DNA of 64,000 bases from Pirellulaceae bacterium. GTDB taxonomy: Bacteria; Planctomycetota; Planctomycetia; Pirellulales; Pirellulaceae. The position numbers and the translations under genes are program-made. Numbering within the stretch: position 1 is the first letter of the stretch; the number at the start of each line of letters is the position of its first letter. Below the pieces are notes generated by a model. That model made no database searches. It was not told the origin of the DNA and was given only the letters and a program-made list of their open reading frames with translations. Where the stretch lies: NCBI GenBank assembly GCA_020852965.1, contig JADYZV010000094.1, forward strand, positions 1 through 64,000, in the 5' to 3' direction. Shown here piece by piece: positions 5,918 to 60,399 of the stretch.

Positions 5918-5934
5918 AGAAGACGCAGACGAAG

Positions 5935-6039
5935 GGTTCTTGGTTCTTGGTTCTTGGTTCTTGGTTCTTGGTTCTTGGTTCTTGGTGCTTGGTGCTTGGT
6001 GCTTGGTGCTTGGTGCTTGGTTGTTGGTGCTTGGTTGTT
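5935..6039. repeat. heptanucleotide tandem array, 15 units
   Basis: Fifteen uninterrupted 7-base units fill this span exactly: seven GGTTCTT, then five GGTGCTT, then GGTTGTT, GGTGCTT, GGTTGTT. On the minus strand they lie between the DUF58 gene and the start codon of the BatA-like gene at 5917, ending 17 bases from it. Seven-base units change spacing rather than a reading frame here, so slippage could alter expression of the BatA-like gene. Confidence 0.95.
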
Positions 6040-6129
6040 TTTTTACCGCGAAGCACGCCTATCGCCGCTCAGTGCTCAGCTTCACCTGGGATTTGCTATC
6101 ACATGCCGTCCCTATCGGGACCCAAACAC

Positions 6130-8138: not shown

Positions 8139-8180
8139 GTAGTGGATGAGGTAATTGTAGTGGACGAGGTTACGAGTCCC
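8139..8180. repeat. family A palindrome arms, direct duplication
   Basis: Two direct copies of one family A arm: an imperfect one (GTAGTGGATGAGGTAA) and, at 8157-8180, one that starts GTAGTGGACGAGGTTACGAG. No inverted arm sits next to them; the nearest inverted copies are at 8444-8485. Confidence 0.75.
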
Positions 8181-8204
8181 TGGCGGTTATCGCGGATTAT
8201 TCAT

Positions 8205-13890: not shown

Positions 13891-15270
13891 ATGATGCCTA
13901 GAAAGTCAAAATTGATGCAAACGATGGCCGCTACGTGGAGCATAATAGCGATGCAAAGTGTGATTTCGCGACCCAAATTCGTATGTTTATGGCTGATAGC
14001 GGCGTTGGCGATGCCCACGGCTCAGCTCGCTGCCCAAAGCAAAGGCAGCCAGTCATTCGCGAGCATTATGTCGTATGCAACCACGTTTGAAGAACTTCAG
14101 CGCGATTCCGAAGAGCTGCTAGCTACTCAGCGTCGGCTGATCCAACAACGCGACGATGCCCACGCACGCTTACAGCAGAGCGAGAAAGACCTAGGGCAGG
14201 TCAAGTCCGCTGAAGTCATGGGTGCCATGCGGTTGTGGGAAGCCAACATGCAACTGCAGCTTCTCCAGCTTGATTTTGCTGTACTGTCCAGTCAATCCAC
14301 CCTGCGTGATTCAGCTTCGTCAGATCCACTGCTACAGAACAGACGGCCATCCTCGACGGGTACAATAGAATCGGGGCGAGTTCTTTCTGGCAATATTCAA
14401 CAGCAACAATTTCGAACAGTGCAGTCGATCAACCTGGGGGAACAGTTCAAACAGCTCGATTTGGCGAGCCGGTTGGTCGTCGAACGTCGTCAGAAGATAC
14501 TCAACGGTCTTGAGGAAACGAACCGCCAAGCTCAGCAGTGGTTTGTCGACCAACGCAAGCTATACGATCGCTATCTTGATCAAGCGGATATCGCGGGTGT
14601 ACGAAGTCAAGTTCAGCTTAAATCGGCACTACGTGAACTCGAACGAGCCGACCCCGATAACCTGAGCGCACGAGTCGTGCGAGCCATTACGCTGGTCCGA
14701 CTCGAGCGGCTCGACGAAGCTGAACCACTCATGGAGGAGCTTGTCCGGTCGCCGACGATTGCGCGGCCTGTAGCCATAGCCCTGAAAGCAGAGGTGCTCG
14801 CGCGTCGTGGAGAGACGAAGGAAGCTCAAAAGCAACTGAAGGAACTTCTCAAGCTAAAAGAGATTCCCTCACAGGCGATTTGGCTTCACGCGCAAGTAGC
14901 GCAGCTCTTAAATGACCCCAGCCAGGCGGTCAGACAGTGGAATTCTCTGCTGCAAAGCGGTTCGAATGAAGTCGCCGCGCACCGAGGACTCGCACTGTGC
15001 TATTGTACATTTCGGCAGCGTTCCTCCAACCAAAAGCGTGTGTACCGCGAAGCCCTGGAACACGCCGAACTTGCCAATCGATTGACTGGTGACAGCGATT
15101 GGAGTTGCCAGATTGCATTGGCTCTGGCCACCGCCATTAGCGGTGACCTAGATCAAGCCGCTACGCTCGCCGAAACGGCTGCAGATAGCGCATTGTTGGA
15201 AAAGCAAACGCTGTGTCTCGCCTTCGCCCAAGAGCTGCGGGATGGGAGCATTCCCGTGTGGGAATTCTAA
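13891..15270 (+). CDS. secreted TPR-like repeat protein
   Basis: 459 residues in the longest frame. Several in-frame ATGs lie near the start; the one at codon 21 (13951) gives the best signal peptide, ending ALAMPTAQLAAQ. A coiled-coil-like segment (about 60-130, rich in Q, E and R) and a central region follow. From about 240 to 440 there are helical-hairpin repeats typical of tetratricopeptides (RAITLVRLERLDEAEPLMEE, AEVLARRGETKEAQKQLKEL, AALAETAADSALLEKQ-type). These usually serve as protein-binding scaffolds. No enzymatic motif is seen. It diverges from the Hint protein gene; both are secreted, but no other link shows. Family A repeats directly after the stop probably end transcription. 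Confidence 0.72.
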   Translation: MMPRKSKLMQTMAATWSIIAMQSVISRPKFVCLWLIAALAMPTAQLAAQSKGSQSFASIMSYATTFEELQRDSEELLATQRRLIQQRDDAHARLQQSEKDLGQVKSAEVMGAMRLWEANMQLQLLQLDFAVLSSQSTLRDSASSDPLLQNRRPSSTGTIESGRVLSGNIQQQQFRTVQSINLGEQFKQLDLASRLVVERRQKILNGLEETNRQAQQWFVDQRKLYDRYLDQADIAGVRSQVQLKSALRELERADPDNLSARVVRAITLVRLERLDEAEPLMEELVRSPTIARPVAIALKAEVLARRGETKEAQKQLKELLKLKEIPSQAIWLHAQVAQLLNDPSQAVRQWNSLLQSGSNEVAAHRGLALCYCTFRQRSSNQKRVYREALEHAELANRLTGDSDWSCQIALALATAISGDLDQAATLAETAADSALLEKQTLCLAFAQELRDGSIPVWEF

Positions 15271-15272
15271 GG

Positions 15273-15362
15273 CAGTGGACGAGGTTACGAGTCCTCAACC
15301 GATAGAGAATCTACAGGACTCGCAACCTCGTCCATTACAGGACTCGTAACCTCGTCCACTAC
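15273..15362. repeat. family A palindrome, three arms
   Basis: One forward arm (15273-15294) and two inverted arms (15316-15338 and 15340-15362, both reading GGACTCG-AACCTCGTCCA). It starts 3 bases after the stop of the TPR-like gene and lies between convergent genes, a position suited to a two-way transcription end. Confidence 0.85.
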
Positions 15363-15447
15363 CCGAAAATAGAAGCTCGAATGCAACAACGCGATGACCG
15401 GTGGGGCATCGCGCTGGAGTTGAGTTTATATTCGGTGGCTGGCAGCC

Positions 15448-15891: not shown

Positions 15892-16255
15892 AACCCCCTG
15901 GGACTTCGTTTGTCAGCAACCTGATTCACGGGCGGCGACTTGGTTTATTGTGCGTTGAGAAGGACTGTTCCAAGCGTCGACGGCGCTACCGACGACCAGC
16001 GGCGGCAGCTAGGTCGCATGACCGCTCGCAAGAAAGTCCTCCTCAGCAGTTCCAATCGGCCACAAGCAAAGGCAGAGTTGAAGGAATATCCAATACAACC
16101 TGCATTCTGCGAACACGCGATAAACTGCGCAGAGTTTGCGGGCCAATCCCCTTGAATTAATTAAGATAGCTGGCGCACTCCCTACCATCCGTGCTCCGGC
16201 CTTGCCATCCGTGCGAAAATTCTTGTCATTCGCTAGCATGGAAATTAACGCGACT
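15892..16255. other. intergenic region without a recognisable gene
   Basis: About 360 bases upstream of the small secreted protein and downstream of the sulfatase. Apart from a family C repeat (16185-16241) nothing recognisable is seen; short open frames here lack ribosome sites and protein-like composition. Confidence 0.5.
16185..16241. repeat. family C palindrome, degenerate copy
   Basis: Begins CCATCCGTGCTCCGGCCTTG and repeats CATCCGTGCGA, with a decayed inverted arm (GCTAGCATGG). It lies 15-70 bases after the stop of the sulfatase gene on the minus strand. Confidence 0.75.
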
Positions 16256-17722: not shown

Positions 17723-17844
17723 GATGACATCTTTCGCGGTGTGCTAATGGTGTAGCCATTCACAAGTTTTGCAATCGCCCGTGCCATTTTGCGTCTGACA
17801 TTAATAAGAATGCTAGGAAACGAGCAATGTCGTCTTTTGTCCCT

Positions 17845-17926
17845 GCCATCCGTGCTCCGGCCTTGCCATCCGTGCGAGAACTCGTGTCAATCACTAGCAC
17901 GGATGGAAAGGCCGGAGCACGGATAG
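17845..17926. repeat. family C palindrome containing a gene's stop codon
   Basis: Arms 17848-17875 (ATCCGTGCTCCGGCCTTGCC and onwards) and 17897-17924 are almost perfect inverse complements with a 21-base loop. The minus-strand gene at 17887-20169 ends inside it: its last dozen codons and TGA (17887-17889) are element sequence. Confidence 0.92.
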
Positions 17927-20169
17927 TTACGCAGATCCTCCAGTACCGCTGCGCTGCCAGGTTGACTAGCCAGATTGTACCTTTCGAGCGCGTCGACGGC
18001 GTGGTCGTAGAGCTCTTCCGATCCATCGGCGTAGCGGATATATCGGTAGCGTTCGTTTCGCAGGGCGACGTTCCCTTTGTCAAAGGTGGTTAGCACATAC
18101 CTGTCGGTATCTAGTTTGGGGTCGCGCAGTAGTGGCACCAGCGATTGGCCATCGAGCTCTTCGGGACCTGGCACGTTGCAGAAGTCCAACAGAGTGGGAT
18201 AGAGATCGAGCAAACTGACCACGCGCTCGCAGCGTGAGCCGGCCGACGCGAACTGGCTAGCTTGCGACTTGGGAGGAATGATCATCAGCGGGACGCGGGT
18301 AGATCGCTCCCAACCCGTCCACTTGCCCCAATGCTGTTTCTCGCCTAGGTGCCAACCGTGGTCGGTCCACAGCACAATGAGCGTATTGTCGCCCAAGGAA
18401 CCTGAATCGAGCGCCGCGATCAGACGCCCGAGCTCATGGTCGACGTAGTAGGTGCATGCCAAGTAGGCTTGGACGGCATTTCGCCACTGGTCATGCTTGA
18501 CGACCGTCGCGTGGCTACCAGCGGTTACCGCCTCCAAGGCCCATTGCTTGCCGGCCGAGCTCAGGTCATCCAAGTCATCCTGGGTATAGGGAGGTAATTG
18601 AATTGCGTCGAGCGGAAAGGGCTCGAAGTAGCGACTCGGGGCCCACAATGGAATGTGCGGTCGATAGTATCCGACGCCCAGGAAAAACGGCTTACCCTCA
18701 AACCCCTGCTGCAGTTGCTCGATGGCCCAATCAGTGATTTTTGTATCCCCCATCTCGGTGTCGGCCACATCGAGTGGTCCCCAGTCGAACGACTCGCCAT
18801 CCGGCTTCCCTGGGGCGCGATCCGAGGGCATGCGATTCAGTGGCAACACGATCGGATCAGCTCCTTCGCGTTCGACGACATGCCGTGGGTTCTCGCTTCC
18901 TTTGCTCGGCAACTCTTCCTTGGTGTAGCGCACCGTCTTACCATTCAGCGGACTCCATCGCTGCTCAGTACTAAACGATTGCTCGAATAGCATTCTATTA
19001 TCCGGACCACCGCCATGCAGCATTTTTCCGGTCGCCAAGGTTGAATAGCCCGCCTTCTGGAAAGCGCGCGGGATGGCAAGTATGTCGGGATGCTGTTTCA
19101 GCAACTGAGCACTGTCGTTGGACCATACGCCGGTATAATGTGGGGTGCGTCCGCTAAAAACCGCCGCTCGCGACGGATTGCAAGCCGGGGATGAGCAATG
19201 AGCATTGGTGAATAACACACCACGACTGGCCAACGCATCCATGTTGGGTGTTAACGCCTGGGGATGCCCCTGCAAGCAGCCGATCCAGTCATTCAAGTCG
19301 TCGATTGCAATGAACAACACATTGGGTCGTTCCTGAGACTTTCGCGTAAACTCCAACACCGACACAACGGGCCGATGATCGGAAGCCAACGCCTCATCGA
19401 GCACTCGCGACTCGACCTCGCGGATGTTGAACTCCACGTTTGTCGAAGCTTGACCGTGCAGAATGTAGTCGATCTTCCTTTGTGGCTTTCCAACGGGAAT
19501 CGTGGGCTGATCCTGCCCCGTTGGGAGCGTCCACTGCTGCCGGAGTGACTCGATGGTACTGCTATCGGGAACTGCGTTCAAGTCACCTACCAAGCAGAGG
19601 GGCTGTTCCGAAGCGTCGACTAGTTCGTTGATGAATTTTGCTGAAGCCAATCGCTGAGCGGGATCGTGACGATGGTCAAGATGCGTCGCCAGAAACTTCA
19701 GCTCGATTCCTTGCGGCAGTTCCACATTGACTTCCAACAGACCGCGTTGCTCACCGCCCCCTACGTTAGGTAGTACGTGATTCTTGCTCGATTTGATCGG
19801 GTAGCGAGAGAGCACGGCATTGCCATATTTGCCTCCCTGCAAATCGATGTTGGCACCGAAGACAACGTGCATCCCCAGTTGTTTGGCAAGCTCTTGAGGC
19901 TGATCGACTCGTTCGCTGCGCGCGACGCGTTGATCGACTTCCTGGAGCGAGACCAAGTCGGCTTGGGACTTGCGAATCACCTCTGCGATACGGTCGAGAT
20001 CCAAACGACCGTCGACCCCTTCGGCATGATGAATATTGTAGGAAAGGACGGTGACTCGCAGTGGGGCTTCAGCCGAAGAGGACTCGGACGATTGCGCGAG
20101 CACTTGTGATGGAATGTAGCTCGAAATGAACGAAAGGATCGTCAGCCCGATCGACATTGCTAGTTTCAT
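17887..20169 (-). CDS. fusion of exonuclease/phosphatase domain and sulfatase
   Basis: A 760-residue secreted two-domain protein; signal peptide about 1-25, ribosome site AAAGGAT before the ATG. Residues 38-273 are an endonuclease/exonuclease/phosphatase domain with its catalytic set: VLSYNIHH, SLQEVD (Glu77), ATHLDHRHD, VGDLNAVP (Asp196, Asn198) and SDHRPVV (Asp264, His265). Residues 281-750 are a sulfatase with FIAIDDLNDW and formylglycine Cys330 in CNPSR, plus [18 protein letters not shown]. Each half is complete, so both may be active, for instance on sulfated and phosphorylated substrates. The last dozen residues (YPCSGLSIRASD) come from the family C element, so the native C-terminus has been replaced or extended. 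A family D-like copy lies just upstream of the start. Confidence 0.9.
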   Translation of the reverse strand: MKLAMSIGLTILSFISSYIPSQVLAQSSESSSAEAPLRVTVLSYNIHHAEGVDGRLDLDRIAEVIRKSQADLVSLQEVDQRVARSERVDQPQELAKQLGMHVVFGANIDLQGGKYGNAVLSRYPIKSSKNHVLPNVGGGEQRGLLEVNVELPQGIELKFLATHLDHRHDPAQRLASAKFINELVDASEQPLCLVGDLNAVPDSSTIESLRQQWTLPTGQDQPTIPVGKPQRKIDYILHGQASTNVEFNIREVESRVLDEALASDHRPVVSVLEFTRKSQERPNVLFIAIDDLNDWIGCLQGHPQALTPNMDALASRGVLFTNAHCSSPACNPSRAAVFSGRTPHYTGVWSNDSAQLLKQHPDILAIPRAFQKAGYSTLATGKMLHGGGPDNRMLFEQSFSTEQRWSPLNGKTVRYTKEELPSKGSENPRHVVEREGADPIVLPLNRMPSDRAPGKPDGESFDWGPLDVADTEMGDTKITDWAIEQLQQGFEGKPFFLGVGYYRPHIPLWAPSRYFEPFPLDAIQLPPYTQDDLDDLSSAGKQWALEAVTAGSHATVVKHDQWRNAVQAYLACTYYVDHELGRLIAALDSGSLGDNTLIVLWTDHGWHLGEKQHWGKWTGWERSTRVPLMIIPPKSQASQFASAGSRCERVVSLLDLYPTLLDFCNVPGPEELDGQSLVPLLRDPKLDTDRYVLTTFDKGNVALRNERYRYIRYADGSEELYDHAVDALERYNLASQPGSAAVLEDLRNYPCSGLSIRASD

Positions 20170-20183
20170 AGGTGCTATCCTTT

Positions 20184-20215
20184 GGAGTGCTGGGACTTGT
20201 CACAGCTTTGGTCTT
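20184..20215. repeat. family D element, degenerate copy in a gene leader
   Basis: GGAGTGCTGGGACTTGTCAC and the following AGCTTTGGTCTT match the family D consensus at 26630-26662 except that the central hairpin is decayed. It ends 14 bases upstream of the start codon at 20169, nearly the same place as the copy in front of the gene at 26622. Confidence 0.6.
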
Positions 20216-20395
20216 GAGACAGGTAGACACCAACTGCAACGTTTCGCAATGTTCGTGCTGGGAGTAGGTTGGTCCTGAACACTTGTTTTAAACGTGAGGT
20301 TCCGGGCGCACAGAGGTGTCGTGTAGTATACCACCTAACGGCTCTAACCGCTCGCGATAGATACGTTTGCTTGTGATTCTGGCTATGGGGGAGGC

Positions 20396-20423
20396 CAAAG
20401 CGGGGATCAATCCCCGCACTCCA
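20396..20423. repeat. family D element after carB
   Basis: CAAAGCGGGGATCAATCCCC and onwards: a perfect 8-base stem (GCGGGGAT/ATCCCCGC) with a 2-base loop, in the opposite orientation to the copies at 26.6-26.9 kb. It sits 6 bases after the carB stop on the minus strand and could act as a transcript end. Confidence 0.75.
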
Positions 20424-20429
20424 AGGAGA

Positions 20430-26622: not shown

Positions 26623-26629
26623 ATTTTTT

Positions 26630-26662
26630 GGAGTGCGGGGATTTATCCCCGCTTTGGTCTTC
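26630..26662. repeat. family D hairpin in the leader of the PQQ gene
   Basis: GGAGTGCGGGGATTTATCCC and onwards; a perfect 8-base stem (26635-26642 with 26645-26652) followed by CTTTGGTCTT. It ends 7 bases from the start codon at 26622 on the minus strand, so the hairpin would form in the mRNA leader. Confidence 0.8.
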
Positions 26663-26822
26663 CCCACAGTCAACACCAACGCGGACGGTCGTCGATAAAC
26701 AAGAGCGGAATCAGCATAGTCTTCACTGATAAACAATCCAAATGCAGGGCCCAGTCGCTTCAAACTCGAAGCACTCTACCAGCACTTCAGCTTGCTTCTA
26801 GCCGCAGTGAGGGCCAAAATAT

Positions 26823-26854
26823 GGAGTGCGGGGATTTATCCCCGCTTTGGTCTT
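26823..26854. repeat. family D element, second copy
   Basis: Identical over about 32 bases to the copy at 26630-26662 and in the same orientation, with the same GCGGGGAT/ATCCCCGC stem. The two copies are 193 bases apart. Confidence 0.85.
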
Positions 26855-26943
26855 CTGCTATTGTAGTGTTTCCATCAATAGTCGTTAATCGCTCCGTAGA
26901 TCAGTTACCCATTTGGGCTGACTTTTTTTGTCATGGGTTCTTA

Positions 26944-28466: not shown

Positions 28467-28511
28467 CGCGACTGGTGCGACCGCGACTGAAATGTTTTGC
28501 TTATATCGAAG

Positions 28512-28579
28512 GTAGTGGACGAGGTTACGAGTCCCGTTTGGATCGTTAACCGTTAGGGACTCGTAACCTCGTCCACTAC
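28512..28579. repeat. family A palindrome, perfect 24-base arms
   Basis: Arms 28512-28535 and 28556-28579 are exact inverse complements (the left begins GTAGTGGACGAGGTTACGAG) with a 20-base loop. It lies between convergent genes, 46 bases from one stop and 34 from the other, an ideal place for a two-way terminator. There is no U-tract, so Rho-independent action would be non-standard. This is the type copy of family A. Confidence 0.95.
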
Positions 28580-28612
28580 GACTAACCCCAAAAATCAAAT
28601 TTGGTTGAAGCG

Positions 28613-30682
28613 CTACGATTCAATCTGCGTCAACTTTGGCAACGCGGCGTAGCAGTCGGGCATGTCGAAGTGGCTGAGAACATCTAACGGCAGATAAGCT
28701 AACGGCATGTCGTAGTCTTCGTCGATCGCCAGCGAATGAAAAGATTCCAACGCTCGATTGAGCGTTACCGACGAGACGCAATCACCCAGCATACTCTGAC
28801 TGAGCACCACTGCCAGGCTTGCTGAAATCGCGCCCCAACCACTGGCAATGATTTCAATCTGTTCGTGGCCAAACGACTTCATCCATTGCAACACTCGGAG
28901 TACATCCCAAGTCTTTTGACCGAGATATGAGCGATCGAGCATGAGTCCATGTATGGCGTAGAAGTAGTCGCATCCATAGGGATCATCAAAACTGTTGAAT
29001 CCGCAGGTGTTGGGACGCGATTCACCAATGCCGCGAACGTCGCATGCGAAGACTGGCGTCTCTGGCCGACCGGTAATCAACTTACGCAGCCAATCTTCGT
29101 CACGCAACTCCTGATCGCTCGATCGATGCGACACATACAAGACGGCTGTTCGCACGTCCTGCGGTGGCCGACTGTAATGCGGCGCATCCGTTAGCATATA
29201 GCTCAGCGCAAACACACCAGGCTCGGTTTCCACAGCGTAGGTCGTGCTAGAGCGACGAGGGTATTGGCGATTTCCGATGTTGCGCAAAATGCGATAGTCG
29301 GGTGGTTCGTTCGGCAAGTTGGGCGCGACATTGAGCACCTGCTGGATGAGCTTCGGCAACTGGCCACTGTCAACTTGGGCACGTTGTTTTTGTAACAGCA
29401 GAGCTTTGTCGCGAGTCATGCTAAAGACGGTGGCAGGCTGCGCGGTGGCAACTTGTCCTGATGGCGTGCATTGCAGCGTTTCGTCCGTTTCGATGACGAT
29501 CTCCGGTTCGCGCTCGGCGTCCGAGACTCCCGTGATGCGATTGAACCAGCCATACATGGCCTCTCGATTCTCGATCGAGTAACCATGATCCGTGGGGCCG
29601 GTATGCAGCGCGATGTTGTCAGGTTTCCCTAATAGCGTGTACAGTCGCTTTAGTCGCTTAAACGCTTCTTCACCGCCACGGACATCGAAGTAATCTCGCT
29701 CTTTGGTAAGGATCACGATCGGCTTGGGCGCCATGGCAGCCAGGAAGTCTTCATGCTCCAATCCCAGCGCCAGCGCATGCGGCGGGCACTGCTCGGTATC
29801 GGCGGGCAATTCGTTCTCCGCGTTATGTAGGAACGTGGTTACGAAGCAGGCGGGCGCGGCCATAGTCCATCGCGACTCGACGCCGCACAACCAGGTCGTC
29901 ATAGTGCCACCACCTGAATTACCCGTCACACCGACGTGTTGTGGATCGACTTCCTCGCGAGTCAACAAGTAGTCGAGCGCGCGAATGCCATCCCAGGCTC
30001 GCCACATTCCGAAAAAGTCGCCGACCAAAAATTGTTGATTGCCCGCGTGAATGTGTTCGCGGACGCCTACGCCATATTTCGATTTGACTTGGCCATCTTT
30101 GCTAACCATATATTGCAGACGCTCTCCTTGACCAATAGGGTCGTATATTAAGCAGGCGTAGCCTTGCAGTGCGAGTCCCTGCGCAAATGACTGATAGGCG
30201 CCTGCCGCTTTGCCATTGTCGGAGTGACCGCAGGTTCCCACCACCGCAGGCACTTTTCCAGGTCGCTTGGGCAAGTATAGATTGGCAGTGACCGGAAAGT
30301 TCGGGCGGCTATCGAAGATGACCTTTTCAATGCGGTATTGGTCGCGCTCAATGACACCAGTCACTCGCGCGTTTAAGTCTGTCTTTTCCGGATGTGGGCC
30401 AAAGCAGAGTGCGATTTTCTCGCGAACCGATTGCACGTATCGTTCGGCATCGCTGCGAGTCTGCAGGCGTTCCTTCGCTTCGACTGAGCGATCGTGAGCG
30501 GCAGTGACCCGCTCGACCAAGAACTCTTGCATCATCCGCGGAAAGCGATCGAGCGCAGGAAGGGTCTGAGCAGAGCTGTCTTGTGCCAACAACTCTGAGT
30601 TTGACAAGTCGGCTAGTGCCAGCGCGGAAAGTGAACCGGCGAGCGTTTGAGCGAATGCGCGGCGATGGAAATGGAAAGGCAT
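28613..30682 (-). CDS. secreted alpha/beta hydrolase, acetylxylan-esterase-like
   Basis: 689 residues from the ATG at 30682; a longer frame to 30970 would run across the rmlB stop and a palindrome. The start resembles a twin-arginine leader (HRRAFAQTLAGSL). The first half is an alpha/beta hydrolase with nucleophile Ser256 in GNSGGG, an acid in YFDVRGGEEA and His in TDHGYS, as in the acetyl-xylan esterase group. The second half (about 430-689) looks like another hydrolase core (FACDVRGIGESRPNT), but its nucleophile elbow reads IIASGWGAIS, with no G-x-S-x-G, so it is probably inactive. Likely deacetylates a polysaccharide or similar ester. Confidence 0.8.
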   Translation of the reverse strand: MPFHFHRRAFAQTLAGSLSALALADLSNSELLAQDSSAQTLPALDRFPRMMQEFLVERVTAAHDRSVEAKERLQTRSDAERYVQSVREKIALCFGPHPEKTDLNARVTGVIERDQYRIEKVIFDSRPNFPVTANLYLPKRPGKVPAVVGTCGHSDNGKAAGAYQSFAQGLALQGYACLIYDPIGQGERLQYMVSKDGQVKSKYGVGVREHIHAGNQQFLVGDFFGMWRAWDGIRALDYLLTREEVDPQHVGVTGNSGGGTMTTWLCGVESRWTMAAPACFVTTFLHNAENELPADTEQCPPHALALGLEHEDFLAAMAPKPIVILTKERDYFDVRGGEEAFKRLKRLYTLLGKPDNIALHTGPTDHGYSIENREAMYGWFNRITGVSDAEREPEIVIETDETLQCTPSGQVATAQPATVFSMTRDKALLLQKQRAQVDSGQLPKLIQQVLNVAPNLPNEPPDYRILRNIGNRQYPRRSSTTYAVETEPGVFALSYMLTDAPHYSRPPQDVRTAVLYVSHRSSDQELRDEDWLRKLITGRPETPVFACDVRGIGESRPNTCGFNSFDDPYGCDYFYAIHGLMLDRSYLGQKTWDVLRVLQWMKSFGHEQIEIIASGWGAISASLAVVLSQSMLGDCVSSVTLNRALESFHSLAIDEDYDMPLAYLPLDVLSHFDMPDCYAALPKLTQIES

Positions 30683-30744
30683 GGCGGGTCTCGACTGGAG
30701 GATAGTAGAATACGGCAGGTGTAAGCATTTGCATTGTAGTCGAC

Positions 30745-30810
30745 AATGTGGCTCGACGCTCCGCGTCGTGAGTTCTATTAGCGACACCGACGCGGAGCGT
30801 CGGGCCACAT
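30745..30810. repeat. family B palindrome, complete copy
   Basis: Left part AATGTGGCTCGACGCTCCGC, right part GACGCGGAGCGTCGGGCCAC, inverse complements with a short loop. The copy ends 2 bases from the stop codon of rmlB (minus strand). Confidence 0.9.
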
Positions 30811-30812
30811 GA

Positions 30813-31850
30813 TTACCCGAGTCCCGCACGCCGAAACGCGGCCGGCCGAACTTCAGCCACCCAGGCCTCGTTATCAAGATACCATTGCACCGTCGAACGC
30901 AAGCCATCGGCAAACTGGTTCGTGGGCGACCAATCCAACTCTGCACGTAGCTTAGTCGTATCCATTGCATAGCGCCGGTCGTGGCCTGGACGGTCCGCCA
31001 CGTGCGTGATCAGCTCGCGCATGCTGCCTGAGTCGCGACCCGTGGCTTCCGCAACATAATCGCAGATCGCCTGCACAACTTGTAGATTCGTCAGTTCGCT
31101 GCCTCCACCAACATTGAAGACATCGCCCACTGTGCCACTTTCCAACACGCGCTCTATCGCGCTGCAATGGTCGTCGACGTGCAACCAATCGCGAACTTGC
31201 AGTCCATCGCCGTAGACGGGGAGCGGTCGCTGCTCGATGGCGTTGAGGATCATTAGCGGAATCAACTTTTCAGGGAATTGGTAAGCCCCATACGTGTTCG
31301 AGCCACAAGTTGTTAAGACTGGCAAGCCATAGGTCCGATAGAATGCGCGCACGAAGTGATCTGAGGCTGCCTTGGATGCCGCATAGGGCGAGTTGGGTGC
31401 ATATCCTGAAGACTCGTCAAATGCACCGCTGGCTCCAGTTGAACCATAGACCTCGTCGGTCGAGACATGCAGGAAGCGGAATTTCCGCTGCGCGACCGCG
31501 TCGAGTTCCCGCCAGTAGGCCAGTGCCGCAGTCAGCAAACTAACAGTCCCCAACACGTTGGTTTGCGCGAACACTCCCAGTGCGTCGATGGAACGATCCA
31601 CATGACTCTCCGCCGCAAAATTGACGGCGGTCGTGCAGGCGTGTCGCTGCAGCAAGTCAAGCATCGCCGATTGATCGCCGATATCCAACTGCGAGAACGA
31701 GACACCATCAGTCCGCAGCGGCTGGTCGATCGACGACAGATTGCCTGCGTAAGTCAGTTTGTCGACCAAACACAGTTTGCGCCCTTGGGCAGCTTGTCGC
31801 CGAGTAAAACAACTACCGATAAAACCCGCCGCTCCCGTTACCATCCACAT
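30813..31850 (-). CDS. rmlB: dTDP-glucose 4,6-dehydratase
   Basis: 345 residues, normal length. It oxidises and dehydrates dTDP-glucose to dTDP-4-keto-6-deoxyglucose for rhamnose and related sugars; cytosolic. Seen: NAD-binding TGAAGFIGS near the N-terminus, the STDEVYGS loop with catalytic Asp-Glu, and the SDR Tyr-Lys pair in SPYAASKAASDHF. The RmlB-type regions NTYGAYQFPEKLIPLMI and VRDWLHVDDHC support this over other 4,6-dehydratases. rmlA, rmlC and rmlD are not nearby, so this copy is isolated. Its stop abuts a family B palindrome; a family C element lies upstream of its start. Confidence 0.95.
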   Translation of the reverse strand: MWMVTGAAGFIGSCFTRRQAAQGRKLCLVDKLTYAGNLSSIDQPLRTDGVSFSQLDIGDQSAMLDLLQRHACTTAVNFAAESHVDRSIDALGVFAQTNVLGTVSLLTAALAYWRELDAVAQRKFRFLHVSTDEVYGSTGASGAFDESSGYAPNSPYAASKAASDHFVRAFYRTYGLPVLTTCGSNTYGAYQFPEKLIPLMILNAIEQRPLPVYGDGLQVRDWLHVDDHCSAIERVLESGTVGDVFNVGGGSELTNLQVVQAICDYVAEATGRDSGSMRELITHVADRPGHDRRYAMDTTKLRAELDWSPTNQFADGLRSTVQWYLDNEAWVAEVRPAAFRRAGLG

Positions 31851-32200
31851 GCGTCAGTCGCCCATCTTTCTTTCATAAATTAATAAAAGTCTATTGTGTT
31901 TCGCTGATGAACAGCCGCAACGGTTCACACGAGTGGTCTGGCATTTCTCTATCCGTGCACCGGCCTTGCCATCCGTGCGAGGCAATGACATGAAGCCCGA
32001 GCACGGATAGCAAAGCCGGCGCACGGATAGTAGAGGCAGAAAGCTATCTTACACGCTTCCTCAGATCTTTGCTTTGCCAAACTCAACAATATAGATTAGC
32101 TGTTTTGGCGCTTGCCACGGTTCACGCATCACAATACAGCCGTGCCCAATGATCTCAATGATTATTTCTTTGCATTTGCTATCCAACAACGGAGCGCGGT
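31851..32200. other. intergenic region with a family C element and prepilin-like remnant
   Basis: About 350 bases. Besides the family C element at 31951-32028, the last 35 bases translate in another frame to FAFAIQQRSAV, which resembles the end of a prepilin leader (AIQQARxAAR) normally preceding the protein encoded at 32201. Otherwise no gene is seen. Confidence 0.45.
31951..32028. repeat. family C palindrome, complete copy
   Basis: Left arm 31951-31978 (ATCCGTGCACCGGCCTTGCC and onwards) and right arm 32001-32028 (GCACGGATAGCAAAGCCGGC and onwards) are inverse complements with a few mismatches and a 22-base loop. It lies about 100 bases before the rmlB start. Confidence 0.9.
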
Positions 32201-32922: not shown

Positions 32923-32959
32923 AATGTGGCTCGACGCTCCGCGTCGTGAGTCCTGCTCA
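32923..32959. repeat. family B palindrome, half copy
   Basis: AATGTGGCTCGACGCTCCGC followed by GTCGTGAGTCCTGCT, the left half of the family as at 34376; the right half is missing. It starts 27 bases after the DUF1559 stop and leads into the next gene. Confidence 0.8.
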
Positions 32960-34375: not shown

Positions 34376-34442
34376 TAATGTGGCTCGACGCTCCGCGTCG
34401 TGAGTCCTGCTAGCAACACCGACGCGGAGCGTCGGGCCACAT
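34376..34442. repeat. family B palindrome, complete copy
   Basis: AATGTGGCTCGACGCTCCGC and onwards to GACGCGGAGCGTCGGGCCAC then ATT. The element ends exactly at the stop codon (34443) of the next minus-strand gene. Confidence 0.93.
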
Positions 34443-35867
34443 TCAAGATTTTGTAAAACTGTAGAGCGCAGCGTCGGTACGGATGTAGAATATGCCGTCG
34501 GCAATGACTGGTGTGGCCATCACCCGTTCGCCAAAATCGTACGAAGATAAGATCTTCCCCTCCGGTCCCGACTCGAGTACCGTCATTACGCCACTCTCGC
34601 TGATCAGGTAGACCTTGCCGTCGCCGGCCACGAGCGATGCATAGTAGTTGCCTCGCCCGGCGGCTCGCAGTTGCTGCAACATCTGGCCGTTGTTGATGTC
34701 GAGCAGGGTCACGATACCGCTATCCTTGACCATCGTCATTACACCATCGTAGACCACCGAGCTGGGAACCGTTGGCAGCCCTCGGTTATAGCTCCATTGA
34801 ACATGCTGTGGGTCGAGGCTACCGCGCGTGCCAGGAACTAGGGCGACAGCTACGTTCTGAGCACGTTCGAACACCGCCGCATGGCGAGCCCACTCTTGTT
34901 CGTCCAACTGCTGATCTTGATTTAAGTCGATTCTGAAAAATCGCTCTAAGACGGGACTCGCCGGCGGCAGTTCGTCTTTGGCGACTAATCCATTTTGATT
35001 CTTGTCATATTGTGCCAGGGCCTGAGCGAAAGGCTCCATGGAAATGCGTTCGCCTGGATCGCCACCCGGTGTCCAGGAGGCCGAGTAAATCCGGCCATCG
35101 TGAATGACCGGAGTACAATCGACGATGCGCGATAAGCCATTGAACCACCACAACTTCTCTCCCGTGGCTGAATCGTAGGCAGCTAATTGTAGGGCACCAG
35201 CCACGACGACTTGTTTGGCGCCGTCGCGTTCCAAAACAATGGGGGTCGAGTAGCTACGCGTGGCTTCGCTACGATCTGCCCGCCAAACGGTCTCGCCACT
35301 AGTTTGATCCAGAGCGATGATAAAGCTGTCGATATCGTGGTCTGCATTTAGAATGAGTTTGTCATCGACTAGCACCGGCGAGCTGGCTGCGCCAAACTCG
35401 TCTTGAAAAGGCCCCATGGTTTTTTCCCAGAGGAGATTTCCATCGAGATCGTAGCACAGCAGACCATAGCTACCGAAGAAGGTGAAAATTTGCTTGCCAT
35501 TGCAAGCTGGAGTCGCTGTGGCTGGGCTGCCCGTGCTATGAAAGGGCTCGATCGACTCAGTGGGCACCACTTGCTTCCAACGCACTACCCCAGTGGCTCG
35601 GTCCAAACAGACGGTGGCGAGCTCTTTCTCATCAGCTTGAAAAGTGGTAAGCACAATCAAGTCGCCGCACACGCAAGGGGACGAATGCCCAGGAGCCAAG
35701 GTAGTCCGCCACAACTGTTTGGCGTCCACGGAAAAGTCCGCCGGCAATGGTTGTTGGCCTTGCGCCACACCGTGATCGCTTCGAAAGTGCGAAAGCCCTT
35801 GACTCCATGCTGGTAGAGCAAGCAGCCCCAGCGAAACTGCAATGGCTGATAGAATTCGAAATCGCAT
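34443..35867 (-). CDS. secreted PQQ-type propeller with EF-hand insertion
   Basis: 474 residues from the ATG at 35867, which gives a clean signal peptide (MRFRILSAIAVSLGLLALPA, cut at WSQG). Propeller blades include LDRATGVVRWKQV, YDLDGNLLWEKTM, LDQTSGETVWRAD and YDSATGEKLWWFNG. Between blades lie two EF-hand-like calcium loops, DKNQNGLVAKDE (about 288-299) and DLNQDQQLDEQE (about 314-325), as in calcium-stabilised planctomycete propellers. No catalytic residues seen. Single gene; its stop abuts a family B palindrome. Confidence 0.87.
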   Translation of the reverse strand: MRFRILSAIAVSLGLLALPAWSQGLSHFRSDHGVAQGQQPLPADFSVDAKQLWRTTLAPGHSSPCVCGDLIVLTTFQADEKELATVCLDRATGVVRWKQVVPTESIEPFHSTGSPATATPACNGKQIFTFFGSYGLLCYDLDGNLLWEKTMGPFQDEFGAASSPVLVDDKLILNADHDIDSFIIALDQTSGETVWRADRSEATRSYSTPIVLERDGAKQVVVAGALQLAAYDSATGEKLWWFNGLSRIVDCTPVIHDGRIYSASWTPGGDPGERISMEPFAQALAQYDKNQNGLVAKDELPPASPVLERFFRIDLNQDQQLDEQEWARHAAVFERAQNVAVALVPGTRGSLDPQHVQWSYNRGLPTVPSSVVYDGVMTMVKDSGIVTLLDINNGQMLQQLRAAGRGNYYASLVAGDGKVYLISESGVMTVLESGPEGKILSSYDFGERVMATPVIADGIFYIRTDAALYSFTKS

Positions 35868-51892: not shown

Positions 51893-54739
51893 CTACTCGT
51901 CGGACGGGTCAGTTTCTTTGGCGGGCTCAGGGGGTGTAGATGCAGGCTGGGCGGGAGGTGTGCTCGGCATCACAGCTTCTTCATCAATGATATCCTCCTT
52001 AGGGACTTTGACGATGGCTGTAAGAGTATCCCCCTCGTCGACGTTCATAATGCGTACCCCCTGGGTATTGCGGCCGATGATGTTGATCTCTTTGGCAGCG
52101 ACTCTTTGAATCTTGCCGCGCGAGGTCATCATCAATAGCTCATCGTCGTCGGTAACGGGTACGATGCCGATCACAGGCCCATTGCGTTTGGTCGTTTTAA
52201 TATCCATCAAACCGCCGCCACCACGTCGCTGAGTACGGTAGGAATGGGACGAAGCAACTTCGTCACCACCATCGCCGTTTTCTGTATCGACATTTTCGGC
52301 GCTAACATCTGCCGGCGTCGAATCGGCCGCGTCTGGCGCATCGCCATTTTCGTTTGCGCCATTCTCATCATCTTCAACGGAGGTAAGTTTCTCTCCAGCA
52401 CCGAACCAAGTTCGTTTGCCGTAGCCCTGTTCGCAGACCGTCAGCAGCGTTGCCTCGGGATCGGCCACGACCATGCCGATCACCGAATCTCCCTTCTTCA
52501 GCCGAATGCCCTTCACTCCCGACGTATTGCGCCCCATCGAGCGTGCATCGGTTTCGGCAAAGCGAATGGCCTTACCGCCGGAGGTCGACATCAACATTTG
52601 CGCGTCGGGACCGGCCACGACCACATCGACGAGCTCGTCGTCGTCTTTGAGTTTGATGGCGATGATGCCACCTTTCTTGGGACGGCTGTAAGCGTCGAGG
52701 GCGGTTTTCTTTACCAGACCTCGCTTGGTGGCCATCATCAGAAAGTGACCGGGCATGTCAAAATCTCGTACGGCTACGCATTCGGCGATCTTCTCACCTT
52801 CGGCCAAGTTCAATAGATTGACCACAGCGCGGCCACGGCTCTCGCGACTCAGTTGTGGTATCTCGTAGACCTTCTGCCAGTAGACCTTCCCCTGCGTGGT
52901 GAAAAACAGCAGATAGGCGTGCGTGCTGGCTACAAACAGGTGCTCAACTGGATCTTCATCTTCAGTCTTGGCTCCCGTGATACCCTTACCTCCACGGCGT
53001 TGTGCGCGGTAGGTGATCGATGGAATGCGTTTGATATAGCCGCGATGGCTGATCGTGACCACCATGGTTTCCTCGGTGATGAGGTCTTCCATGTTGTAGT
53101 TGCCCAGCTCTTCGTGGCTGATTTCCGTTCGTCGATTATCGCCAAAACGCCGCGCGATCTCTTCAGTCTCTTCGCGAATGATGGCGTAGATATTCTTGGT
53201 ATCGGATAGTATCTCCAGATAGCCATCGATCTCGACCAACAGTGCGGCGTGCTCGTCGGAGAGTTTGTCTTGTTCGAGGTTGACCAACTGCCCGAGCCGC
53301 ATGGCCAGGATGGCATCGGTCTGTACGCTCGAAAGCGAATAGGTATCCGATTCGCCTCGGTCTCGCTGGAATTCAATGAAACCACGTTCGCCCAGGGCGC
53401 GCTGCATCATCGAGCCGGGAACCTGCACTCCCATCAAACGTTCTTTGGCTTCGACCTGGGTGCGGCTGGAGCGGATAATTTGAATGATTTGATCGATGTC
53501 GGCCAATGCGAGCAGCAGCCCTTCGACCGTGTGCTTGCGCTTGCGAGCTCGGGCAAGCAAGAACTGCGTCCGGCGACGGATGACCGTCACGCGGTGGCGA
53601 ATGAACTCCTGCAGCATCTCCTTCAAATTCAACTCGCGCGGCTTGCCGTCGACCAGCGCCAGAAAAATAATCGAGAAGGAATCTTGCAACGGCGAAAACT
53701 GGTAGAGCTGATTGAGGACGATGTCGGCGTCGTGCCCCTGCTTGATTTCAATGACCAGACGCACCGGCTCTTTGAGATCGCTTTCGTCGCGAATACCCGA
53801 AATCCCCTTGATCCTGCCGGTACTGACCAGGGCTGCGATGCGCTCGATGACTCGGTCGCGAAACTGTTGAAACGGAATCTCACTGACGACGATGCGCGAA
53901 CGATTCTTGATCGTCTCGATCTTGGTACGCGCTCGGACCACAATCACGCTACGACCAGTGCGGTAGCCCTGGCGAATCCCATAACGTCCGCAGATGATGC
54001 CACCGGTAGGAAAGTCCGGGCCAGGCACGAGTTCCATCAGCTCGTCGATCGAAGTTTCCGGATCGTCCACCAATGCTAGGATTGCAGAACAGACCTCGCG
54101 CAAGTTATGCGGAGGAATGCTGGTTGCCATACCTACGGCGATGCCCGTCGCACCATTGACCAACAGGTTGGGGAAACGCGCGGGTAGCACGACGGGTTCG
54201 GTGCGGACCTCGTCGTAGGTCGGGACGTAATCGACCGTATCGAGCTTGAGGTCATCGAGCATATTCGCAGCGGCCGCGCTGAGGCGAGCTTCGGTGTATC
54301 GCATGGCCGCTGGCGGGAGCCCGGCAATCGAGCCGAAGTTACCCTGTTTGTCGATCATCGTTTGACGCATGTTCCAGTCTTGGGCCATGCGCACCAAGGT
54401 CGGATAGATGACCGCTTCGCCGTGCGGGTGGTAATTACCGCTGGTATCCCCCGAGATCTTGGCGCATTTAACTCGCTTAGCCCCTGGCCCGAGCCCCAAG
54501 TCGTTCATCGCGACTAGAATGCGCCGCTGCGATGGCTTGAGCCCGTCGCGCACGTCCGGTAGCGCTCGGCTGACAATCACGCTCATGGCGTAGGTCAAAT
54601 AGCTTTCACGCAGTTCATTTTCGATGGGCTGATCGATAATGGTCGTGCCAGGATGGCTGCCATCGTCACCGCCGGCAGCATTGGTTGCGGGATTGTCCAC
54701 GTCATTCGGGGGTTCGTCGGCCAAGCCAAAATCCTTCAC
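51893..54739 (-). CDS. gyrA: DNA gyrase subunit A
   Basis: 948 residues, GTG start. Cleaves and rejoins DNA through Tyr148 ([11 protein letters not shown]). The quinolone region reads [17 protein letters not shown], so the positions equal to E. coli Ser83 and Asp87 are Ala109 and Pro113. A GyrA-box (QRRGGKG) in the C-terminal wheel supports gyrase rather than topoisomerase IV. An acidic insert of about 50 residues ([20 protein letters not shown] and onwards) breaks the wheel late, followed by a second box-like QRRGGGG at 837-843. The protein ends in a Pro/Glu-rich tail. gyrB is not in the window. Confidence 0.96.
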
Positions 54740-54893: not shown

Positions 54894-55994
54894 CTAACGC
54901 CATACGGCATCGATTGCAGCCACGATCGACAGGCAAAAGCTGAGCAGTGCATTGATCTGAAAGAACGCTTCATTGATACGCCCCAAGTCGAGCTCCCCGG
55001 GCTTCAATGTGGCCCGACGCAATGTGGCCCGACGCTCCGCGTCGGATAGCCCCACATCTCCCTCTCCCTCTCCCTCTGCTCCCCTCGGTCGAATCATTGC
55101 ATGTTGCCGAACAACCAGCGCAGCCACGATGGCCAGTCCCATCCAATAGATAATTCCCAACGAAAGTTGCGGAAACAGACTCGGCAGCGCGGCCAGTACA
55201 ACCAGCATCAATGCGTGCAAGCCCGCAGCGACGCGAAGCGCACCCAACACTCCCAATCGCGCCGGCAGACTGTGCAATCCCGCTTGCCGATCGAATGCAG
55301 CGTCCTGACATGCATAAATAATGTCAAAGCCCGCTACCCAGCAGGCGATCGCCATCGCCAATCCCACAGCGGGCCACACATCGCCGGGGACGATCAGCAG
55401 TACTTCGCCCCGCATGGCTATCCAAGCGCATATCGGGGAGAGTGCCAGTGCCACCCCCAACCAAAGGTGGACGGCAGAGGTAAATCGCTTGGCCAAACTG
55501 TAACCACAAATCCACAGTAGCACTGGCAGTGCACCGGCCAAAGGTAACCAGTTCGGTAGAAACAGCGTGCAGGCTAGGAAGAACATCAACACCATGGCAG
55601 CAAAGAAACCCCAGGCTTGGCCACGAGTCAATTCACCTGAGACCAAGTGCCGTGCGGCGGTGCGCGGATTGCCAGCGTCGAAGCGCGCGTCGACCAATCG
55701 ATTAAAAGCCATCGCCGCCGACCGCGCACTTACCATGCACAGCAGCACTCCCAGCGCGCGCAAGCCAATTTGTCCGCTCGAGAGTTGTCCGCCAAAAGAA
55801 CCAGTTTGCTCAACAGCCGCGAGCGACACTTGCGCTTGAGCCACGTCGTGCTCTAGTGTCTCGCTAGCGGGCAAGGGGACCACACTGGCCCACACGCAGG
55901 CTAGCAGCGCAAATGGCAACGCAAACACCGTATGGCTAAAGCGGATCAATTCGAGCAAGCGCCGCGCGACCGATTTTGGAGATGGTTGATTCAA
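54894..55994 (-). CDS. UbiA-type prenyltransferase with in-frame repeat insertion
   Basis: 366 residues, TTG start, about 70 longer than the family norm. Multi-pass membrane enzyme that attaches a polyprenyl chain to an aromatic acid. Both Asp motifs are present: NRLVDARFD (98-106) and YACQDAAFD (227-235). Extra length comes from a soluble loop at about 40-75 and from about 303-331 (GEGEGDVGLSDAERRATLRR then ATLK), which is translated from two family B copies plus a CCCTCT hexamer run. The normal last helix (LDLGRINEAFFQINALLSFC) follows intact, so the insertion is tolerated in a loop. Given that planctomycetes use the futalosine route, it may be the menaquinone enzyme MqnP; this is inference. 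Confidence 0.9.
   Translation of the reverse strand: MNQPSPKSVARRLLELIRFSHTVFALPFALLACVWASVVPLPASETLEHDVAQAQVSLAAVEQTGSFGGQLSSGQIGLRALGVLLCMVSARSAAMAFNRLVDARFDAGNPRTAARHLVSGELTRGQAWGFFAAMVLMFFLACTLFLPNWLPLAGALPVLLWICGYSLAKRFTSAVHLWLGVALALSPICAWIAMRGEVLLIVPGDVWPAVGLAMAIACWVAGFDIIYACQDAAFDRQAGLHSLPARLGVLGALRVAAGLHALMLVVLAALPSLFPQLSLGIIYWMGLAIVAALVVRQHAMIRPRGAEGEGEGDVGLSDAERRATLRRATLKPGELDLGRINEAFFQINALLSFCLSIVAAIDAVWR
55006..55049. repeat. family B copies inside a coding sequence
   Basis: A short unit AATGTGGCCCGACGC (55006-55020) and a longer one AATGTGGCCCGACGCTCCGC, then GTCGGATAG (55021-55049), lie in frame in the UbiA-type gene. They add about 15 residues (GLSDAERRATLRRATLK) to a loop before the last membrane helix. 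Confidence 0.93.
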
Positions 55995-56035: not shown

Positions 56036-57142
56036 TTAGGGTTGAGGGACTATTAGATTCTTCAACGCGTTGGCGTCGAGTTCGCCTGCCACTAGCGGAT
56101 GATTCCAGCGAGTCGACATCATCACCGAGTTAATACCCGAACCAATGCCTAGCAGCGCAACATGCTTTCCACCCGAAAGCGCACCCTGCTTTAGTCCAAG
56201 AGCCAGCGCGGTCGGCAATGCCACCGAGCCGGTGTTGCCCAGCCACGCAAACGTGCTGAAGTCGTTCAGCTCGGGCAAGTGAAGCGATTCGAGCATCAGC
56301 CGCCGGTGCGTGGCACCGACTTGATGGCAAACGGTCGCGTCGAATTCGTCGCGCTGAGCGCCTTCGGCCAGTAGTTGATCGAAAGTACGAACCCCTACGG
56401 CTATGCCGGCTTGCAATAGTTGCTCCGAGTCGGTTTGCATGAGCGGCTGCATCGCTCGCCCCGCTTGATCGTTGTCGCTCTGACACAACGCATGGTGTTG
56501 CGTTTCCGCTCGTGCCACACAGGAGAGCAAGCGATTATCGGTCTGACTCAGCTTGCGATCGACCAATAGCACCGCACAGCTCCCTGAGCCGATGGTCAGC
56601 GAAGCGAACGAGGGTTTGATCGTTTGACGAGTAAGATGCTCATCGGCATTGAGCGACGCGATCGTCGACTCGACCAAGCTGCGCGCGCTTTCGGTACCAA
56701 CCACGATGCCTGCGCGAATGGCGCCGCGCTCGATCAACGTAGCAATCTGTACCATGCCGCTGAGCAAGCCGAGACAGGCGTTGGAACAATCGTAGACCCA
56801 ACAATCGGAGCTCAGCCCCAGAGCGGCATGCACGCCGCAAGCCGTAGCGGGCTCGAGGTAGTCCCGGCAAACGCTGGCGTGGATCAAGCAACCGATATCC
56901 GCCCGGTCAAGACCCGTCGCATCGAGCGCAAGTCCAGCGGTCTGTGCGCTGGGGCCTCCGATCGAAGTGTCCCTTGGCCAGAATCGTCGCTCGGCAATGC
57001 CACTCATCAGCTCCAGCCTCCCCTCCGGCAAACGCAATCGCGAATAGGTCGGGGCCAACTGCTGTTCGATTTCTTGCGATGTGACAACTTCGCCAGGTAG
57101 GGTAAATGCTAAAGCTTCAATAGCGACACGTTCAAACTGCAC
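56036..57142 (-). CDS. OleA/FabH-like beta-ketoacyl synthase III
   Basis: 368 residues, GTG start. Thiolase-fold enzyme with nucleophile Cys123 in CSNACLGLLSGM, His273 in VCHQVGATH and Asn303 in LGNTGSVALPTAL. The SNACLG context and the longer chain resemble OleA, which joins two acyl-CoAs head to head, more than FabH (compare the gene at 33-1097 with NAACAGF). The oleB, oleC and oleD partners are not adjacent, so a different condensing role is possible. It precedes the UbiA-type gene on the same strand by 41 bases. A 29-unit heptamer array lies 30 bases before its start. Confidence 0.85.
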   Translation of the reverse strand: MQFERVAIEALAFTLPGEVVTSQEIEQQLAPTYSRLRLPEGRLELMSGIAERRFWPRDTSIGGPSAQTAGLALDATGLDRADIGCLIHASVCRDYLEPATACGVHAALGLSSDCWVYDCSNACLGLLSGMVQIATLIERGAIRAGIVVGTESARSLVESTIASLNADEHLTRQTIKPSFASLTIGSGSCAVLLVDRKLSQTDNRLLSCVARAETQHHALCQSDNDQAGRAMQPLMQTDSEQLLQAGIAVGVRTFDQLLAEGAQRDEFDATVCHQVGATHRRLMLESLHLPELNDFSTFAWLGNTGSVALPTALALGLKQGALSGGKHVALLGIGSGINSVMMSTRWNHPLVAGELDANALKNLIVPQP

Positions 57143-57172
57143 GGCTCGTGGCTCGATGAAAAAGGGGGGCTT

Positions 57173-57375
57173 GGTTCTTGGTTCTTGGTTCTTGGTTCTA
57201 GGCTCTAGGCTCTAGGTTCTAGGTTCTAGGCTCTAGGCTCTAGGCTCTAGGCTCTAGGCTCTAGGCTCTAGGCTCTAGGTTCTAGGTTCTAGGCTCTAGG
57301 CTCTAGGCTCTAGGCTCTAGGTTCTAGGCTCTAGGCTCTAGGCTCTAGGTTCTAGGTTCTAGGCTCTAGGTTCTA
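57173..57375. repeat. heptanucleotide tandem array, 29 units
   Basis: 203 bases equal to 29 units of 7: three GGTTCTT, then mixed GGTTCTA and GGCTCTA. The unit is a near relative of the one at 5935-6039. It lies directly upstream (minus strand) of the ketosynthase start at 57142, 30 bases away. Confidence 0.95.
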
Positions 57376-57382
57376 GGGCTTG

Positions 57383-57439
57383 GTAGTGGACGAGGTTACG
57401 AGTCGGTTTGAGTCAGGGACTCGCAACCTCGCCCACTGC
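57383..57439. repeat. family A palindrome
   Basis: GTAGTGGACGAGGTTACGAG and its inverse copy at 57416-57439 (GGGACTCGCAACCTCGCCCA), with an 11-base loop. It abuts the end of the heptamer array. Confidence 0.88.
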
Positions 57440-58688: not shown

Positions 58689-58703
58689 CCACTCCCCTAG
58701 CAG

Positions 58704-58810
58704 AATGTGCCCCGACGATCCGCCGTCGGATTGCATTAGAATGTGGCCCGACGCTCCGCCGTCGGTTTGCATTAGAATGTGGCCCGACGCTCCGCCGTCG
58801 GTTTGCATTT
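58704..58810. repeat. three tandem family B units, 36-base period
   Basis: Units at 58704-58739, 58740-58775 and 58776-58810, each starting AATGTG-CCCGACG and ending CGTCGG-TTGCATT. The last two are nearly identical. Each has a small stem (CCGACG/CGTCGG). The array begins 15 bases after the stop of the amidotransferase-like gene. Confidence 0.95.
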
Positions 58811-60268: not shown

Positions 60269-60279
60269 GTGTCGCTACC

Positions 60280-60337
60280 ATCCGTGCTAGCCAATGTCAC
60301 GAATTCTCGCACGGGTGGCAAAGCCGGAGCACCGATG
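60280..60337. repeat. family C palindrome, degenerate copy
   Basis: ATCCGTGCTAGCCAATGTCA and GCAAAGCCGGAGCACCGATG form the two ends; the arms are shorter than at 17848-17924. It lies between the M28 peptidase stop and the apbE start. Confidence 0.75.
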
Positions 60338-60399
60338 ACAGGGAACGAAGACGATCATACTTCGTCGCCGATCTCGCATGAGAACTACGCAAGTCGAAC

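Follow-up and report, generated by a model that had tools for sequence, protein, structure and literature searches.

A REP-type palindromic repeat inserted in frame in a UbiA-type polyprenyltransferase gene of a Pirellulaceae bacterium

A short palindromic repeat of the REP type interrupts, in frame, the gene of a UbiA-type polyprenyltransferase in the 64,000-nucleotide stretch of Pirellulaceae DNA that was analysed (hereafter the window). The insertion is confirmed, at the level of sequence, by comparison with related genes in which the site is empty, and the original prediction of a palindromic insertion that is in frame and tolerated is supported on the same footing. The host gene and the parts of the insert are as follows.

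54897-55994, minus strand: gene of a UbiA-type polyprenyltransferase, 366 codons, TTG start, stop codon at 54894-54896 (PF01040, TIGR01475 and the list of open reading frames)
55677-55703, minus strand: first Asp motif, N98-D102-D106, intact, with invariant columns in both alignments
55290-55325, minus strand: second Asp motif region, D224-D235, intact, with invariant columns in both alignments
54990-55085, no strand: inserted stretch, 93 bp or 31 codons within these bounds, ends placed to within one codon; relatives are without it
54903-54989, minus strand: conserved D336-L337 and presumed last helix, in frame after the insert, the helix being taken from the family
55006-55019, plus strand: truncated repeat, first 14 bp, AATGTGGCCCGACG (from sequence)
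55021-55045, plus strand: complete REP-type unit AATGTGGCCCGACGCTCCGCGTCGG, 25 bp, with GTGG tag, 7-bp stem and 3-nt loop (DNA fold, z -3.7)
55046-55057, plus strand: ATAGCCCCACAT, the end of which pairs with the ATGTGG foot and extends the palindrome (sequence and fold, z -3.4)
55058-55084, plus strand: CT-rich tail of CTCCCT hexamers, EGEGEG in the protein; similar tails recur 3' of this repeat

The host enzyme and its empty site in relatives

In a profile search the gene product matched PF01040 (UbiA) with an E-value of 1.4e-42 and passed the curated cut-off of TIGR01475 (UbiA-like polyprenyltransferase) with 207.7 bits against 180.8, which bears out the earlier assignment to the UbiA-type prenyltransferases. 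Three models of MqnP, the prenyltransferase of menaquinone biosynthesis, gave 184.9, 168.1 and 165.8 bits, below their cut-offs of 420, 430 and 375. Judged by these profiles, the enzyme is a UbiA-type polyprenyltransferase for which assignment to MqnP falls short. It has no second close copy in its own genome; the sole other match there is a remote one that reaches 34% over about 108 residues (E 3.7e-4). Directly downstream, on the minus strand, lies a frame (51893-54739) that can be named gyrA-like from its sequence alone.

Two sets of relatives, which overlap in some genomes, were aligned with the host. The first was drawn from 60 genomes searched, the host's own included, of which 56 matched; 30 loci were taken, one of them the window's own. 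Three residues (xDL) stand in place of the host's 34 in all 29 aligned relatives, one of which (L011) diverges shortly past the insert position. The second set consisted of the best 80 of 545 relatives in a named collection, nearly all titled planctomycetes, and three residues occupy the insert position in all 80. The comparison of homologues that had been proposed as a check thus finds the stretch absent from 29/29 and 80/80 (best 80 of 545), with flanks that join as xDL. A loop conserved without similarity to the palindrome, the outcome that had been named as speaking against the insertion, was not seen among the 29 and the best 80 of 545 relatives.

The reading frame resumes exactly after the insert. 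Neither alignment shows variation at N98, D102, D106, D224, D231 or D235, and the claim that both Asp motifs are intact holds. Beyond the insert, the conserved columns D336, L337, R339, A343, F344, F345, N348 and D362 are retained in the host enzyme, in agreement with the claim of an intact last helix, a helix that is itself presumed from the family. Among PDB entries the profile search ranked 4od4 first, and its alignment shows a 3-residue gap where this loop lies, consistent with a tolerant spot that would lie between the last two helices.

The insert, repeat and CTCCCT tract included, adds 31 residues: the conserved flanks enclose 34 in the host enzyme and 3 in the relatives. The earlier estimate of about 15-30 residues was about right, and the measured value lies at the upper end of that range. 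The translation reads ...RGAEGEGEGDVGLSDAERRATLRRATLKPGE... upstream of LDLGRINEAFF in the UbiA protein. Two copies of the repeat had been announced within the enzyme; one is a complete unit (55021-55045), composed of AATGTGG and a hairpin with a 7-bp stem, and the other is truncated to the first 14 bp (55006-55019). GCTCCCC stands at 54992-54998 and again at 55078-55084; the idea of a 7-bp duplication of the target was rejected because it would imply an insertion of 86 bp, out of frame and at odds with the 31-codon difference. The two occurrences of GCTCCCC are left as chance or a later change.

The repeat family in the genome

Allowing at most one mismatch, the repeat was matched 202 times in the 8.37-Mb genome and its reversed control pattern not once, an abundance far beyond chance. 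Exact 21-base cores number 169, divided into two types (96 C-type and 73 T-type). When these 169 copies are aligned, conservation extends beyond the core to AAT before it (98, 99 and 93%) and to a G after it (64%). The 24-bp repeat unit, AATGTGGCYCGACGCTCCGCGTCG, occurs 153 times as a 24-mer in its own genome and in none of 395 other genomes of the order, which were drawn evenly from a larger group (the own genome is the one in the tally of 1/396). With at most one mismatch, the 21-mer was found in 2 of 59 relatives, as two and one copies: in the congener G011 both copies sit at the extreme end of a contig of 3.9 kb, and G004 has one near-copy. Inspection by eye noticed no transposase beside the G011 copies or the G004 near-copy.

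Besides the copies in the UbiA-type gene, the window holds the following members of the family.

30745-30810, no strand: inverted repeat pair, tags outermost (sequence; fold z -9.1)
34377-34443, no strand: inverted repeat pair, tags outermost (sequence and genome-wide copy search)
32923-32946, plus strand: single repeat copy (genome-wide copy search)

The complete copies originally placed at 30745-30810 and 34376-34442 are real and form inverted pairs, the second at 34377-34443. An esterase-like frame (28616-30970) reads through the first of these pairs soon after its start, and the true start of this frame may lie past the pair.

At the UbiA site the CT-rich tail is part of the insert, since relatives are without it. 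Among C-type copies, the 60 bases on the 3' side, where these held no other repeat, were at least 70% pyrimidine in 15 of 72 cases, and the 5' flanks in none of 85; random 60-mers reached this level in 0.6% of 2220. Corresponding pyrimidine-rich flanks of T-type copies numbered 4 of 46 (3') against 1 of 56 (5'). In the 5' flanks, too, the pyrimidine content was a little above random (0.53 against 0.50). The tail may travel with the repeat or mark preferred targets.

Several other palindromes and arrays were observed in the window. A variant palindrome, mostly GTGGCCCGACGCTCCGCCGTCGG, fills 58702-58809 as three 36-bp units arranged head to tail, and it recurs about 1.2 kb away from a match to Y1 transposase (L031). 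A second palindrome family, GTAG-tagged GTAGTGGACGAGGTTACGAGTCC, is found at 8152-8192, 15264-15370, 28506-28584 and 57377-57405, with close inverted pairs at two of the four places, and is probably another REP family. A third dispersed family, ATCCGTGCTCCGGCCTTGCCATCCGTGC, lies at 16179-16242, 17830-17927, 31951-32031 and 60278-60354, and a fourth, around GCGGGGATTTATCCCCGC, at 20183-20216, 20380-20424, 26628-26672 and 26822-26855. Tandem arrays with 7/14/21-bp spacing were seen at 57142-57412 and 5918-6062 of the window and at 1043-1448 of L031; an array of this spacing adjoins the Y1 transposase match on contig 48.

Copies inside other genes

Copies less than 300 bp apart were merged into 126 sites, and a site was classed as internal when it fell in an open frame of 250 codons or more, with 40 or more codons between it and the start and 30 or more between it and the end, only such frames being classed. 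By this definition 34 of the 126 sites are internal, against 2429 of 3780 random positions (64%) in the same stretches (depletion p 3e-17); genic sites are depleted yet far from absent. The 34 sites fall in 32 genes. A Pfam family was recognized in 22 of the 31 genes scanned (21 of 30 at E 1e-5, plus UbiA), and the 32nd gene was scanned against NCBIfam only, with matches under the cut-offs. The Pfam match spans the repeat copy in the MFS_1, SBD_N, QueG_DUF1730, PSD1 and DUF7133 proteins. In the ACR_tran and FAD_oxidored proteins the best Pfam stretch starts at or within the repeat. In several other genes the copy is close to the N-terminus and may precede the true start codon.

The empty-site comparison was run for five genes besides UbiA (DUF7133, SBD_N/NBD_C, MnmE, QueG and RND). 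Extra length at the repeat is clear in two of the five alignments. The DUF7133 gene is longer by 9 codons than 6 of 19 aligned matches and by 8 than 3 of 19, these nine including the closest congeners (80-82% identity), and by 10 to 16 than the other 10 of 19, distant matches among them. The SBD_N/NBD_C gene exceeds by 32 to 35 codons the three congeners that have it. The other three genes are less clean and were rejected as clean empty sites. In the MnmE-like gene (L101 1784-3100) the repeat encodes 8 residues, yet the gene is longer by only 3 than 25 of 29 relatives, equal in length to 2 of 29 and shorter than 2 of 29; part of the old sequence would therefore have been lost or replaced. The QueG and RND loops vary in length, with differences from +9 to -42 among 29 relatives of QueG (mostly +6 or +7) and from +18 to +52 among the 10 aligned of 20 loci of RND. 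Just beyond the window on contig 94, a gene with Pfam matches to squalene-hopene cyclase (L038 1362-3542) has a tandem duplication of 72 bp, in frame and with the repeat inside it.

The repeat unit has no stop codon in any of the six frames, and an insertion of suitable length could therefore stay open. A TGA follows 29 of the 73 T-type copies and closes one frame there. The six readings were used unequally in 34 gene-frames (14, 7, 6, 3, 3 and 1; chi-square p 0.002), the most hydrophilic (DAERRAT) being the commonest with 14 and the least hydrophilic the rarest with 1, and between these extremes use was not strictly ordered by hydrophilicity. The 22 Pfam-supported genes, with 24 gene-frames, gave a similar order and a bias that was not significant (p 0.075). 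The frame bias hints that selection acts on the peptides but falls short of proving it.

Relation to REP elements and other known systems

REPs have been defined structurally, in the text of PMC6006769, by a GTAG or GTGG tag 0-2 nt 5' of a hairpin with a basal stem of 7-20 bp and a loop of 2-5 nt. Folded as a single strand, the C-type unit agrees with this definition (GTGG, 1 nt, 7-bp stem, 3-nt loop; z -3.7), and the T-type unit falls short of it with a 6-bp stem (z -2.3). Like REPs, the repeat is dispersed through its genome in high number (169 exact copies, merged into 126 sites) and lies mainly between genes, as far as long frames can tell (34/126 internal, compared with 64% for random positions). 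A catalogue of 2013 includes REPs that lie wholly within genes of several species, for example O. terrae, Thauera and R. conorii; according to the text of that paper, O. terrae has the most intragenic GTAG copies, its GTAG-20 units are mostly GTGG, and 'R. baltica' is among the genomes with several REP families (PMC3733652). The present repeat resembles the intragenic REPs described there in being a short tagged hairpin of high copy number, found singly and in groups, mostly intergenic with some copies inside open frames; it differs in sequence, as far as the text of PMC3733652 shows, figures aside. It differs also in being almost confined to one genome, in its one-sided CT-rich tail and in that no matching RAYT gene was found among the seven PF01797 genes. 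We take the 'R. baltica' of the 2013 catalogue to be the planctomycete Rhodopirellula baltica. The anatomy of the repeat is, overall, the REP anatomy given in the texts of PMC6006769 and PMC3733652.

The genome has seven Y1_Tnp (PF01797) genes. No repeat copy within 3 mismatches was present in their fetched flanks, two of which end at contig ends; near one of the genes lie different palindromes and, about 1.2 kb away, a 4-mismatch variant of the repeat. Copies that flank a RAYT gene, as in RAYT-associated REPs or REPtrons, were thus not encountered at these seven genes. Consequently, the repeat is classed as a REP by its structure and is not placed among the RAYT-associated REPs. REPINs, or BIMEs, are inverted pairs of REPs. 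Neighbouring copies less than 200 bp apart form 42 pairs, 13 of them inverted, all with the GTGG tag outermost as in REPINs and none with the tags inward; unlike REPINs, 29 of the 42 pairs are tandem, 88 of the 169 copies have no neighbour within 200 bp, and a cognate RAYT was not found among the seven genes.

The original comparison was with the RPEs of Rickettsia, palindromes of about 150 bp that, by the account in PMC10969869, lie in frame in many unrelated genes and are apparently tolerated; the same 2024 review regards a process like that of RPEs as conceivable in other prokaryotes. The present repeat likewise lies in frame in genes that are unrelated to one another; it differs from the elements of that account in size (a 24-bp unit, 93 bp at the UbiA site, against about 150 bp) and in phylum. 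The repeat works like an RPE but is not one. The comparison was apt as to the way of working, and the closest described class is that of REP elements inside genes, as the text of PMC3733652 presents them. An in-frame repeat insertion in a planctomycete gene was not reported in the literature listings searched, in line with the earlier remark that no described case was known. REPs in genes and RPEs of Rickettsia are already known, and the planctomycete case joins a known phenomenon with good empty-site evidence.

Origin of the insertion

The reading that we regard as very probable is that of a lineage-restricted burst of a mobile REP, of which in-frame insertions in loops survived. A mobile palindrome, AATGTGGCYCGACGCTCCGCGTCG, often CT-tailed, would have multiplied in this lineage, probably recently and with a Y1 (RAYT-like) transposase as the presumed copying enzyme. 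One copy would have entered the UbiA-type enzyme in the loop that separates its last two helices and been enlarged later by a 15-bp partial tandem duplication and by hexamer repeats. Selection would have purged most genic insertions, those in frame in tolerant protein loops surviving, and the added loop would be translated and nearly neutral. The pillars of this explanation are the copy number of the repeat, its near absence elsewhere, the empty sites, an insert that is a multiple of three, the resumed frame and the retained residues.

Other explanations can be weighed against the same data. The stretch might be an ordinary length-variable loop of the enzyme family that resembles the repeat by chance. 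The loops that carry the copies in QueG and RND are indeed variable in length, but the UbiA loop is uniform, with exactly 3 residues in 29/29 and 80/80 (best 80 of 545) relatives, and the 25-bp unit at this site is a member of a family that numbers 169 exact 21-base cores; this explanation retains almost no probability. No more credible is a misassembly or contamination that placed the repeat in the gene. The assembly is a draft of 199 contigs with 3.6% contamination, and repeats can cause misjoins, but the insert is short, a single open frame runs through both flanks with conserved residues on either side, and other genes show the same in-frame pattern.

The insert could instead have been selected for a function, either through a DNA or RNA hairpin that acts on the transcript before the gyrA-like gene or through a loop that alters the enzyme. 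A role of this kind is improbable. The gyrA-like frame does follow directly on the same strand, and REPs have been hypothesized, in the text of PMC3733652, to act in transcription termination and mRNA stabilization. However, among the 29 and the best 80 of 545 UbiA relatives compared the insert is seen in its own genome only, REP sites are depleted inside genes, and the repeat occurs in many unrelated genes and in all six readings, which argues against a peptide function. A somewhat different proposal would see repeat and CT-rich tail as one composite mobile unit compatible with coding sequence, a genome-wide donor of short polar loops. It is suggested by the length of 24 bp (a multiple of three), the lack of stops and the best survival in the most hydrophilic reading, and we consider it unlikely.

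The UbiA-type gene offers a clear empty-site case of a REP-type element that appears to have been absorbed into a planctomycete protein, and many other genes of this organism hold copies in frame. Since the family is nearly confined to one of the genomes searched, the tolerance and retention of mobile-element sequence by proteins would be directly testable in close strains.
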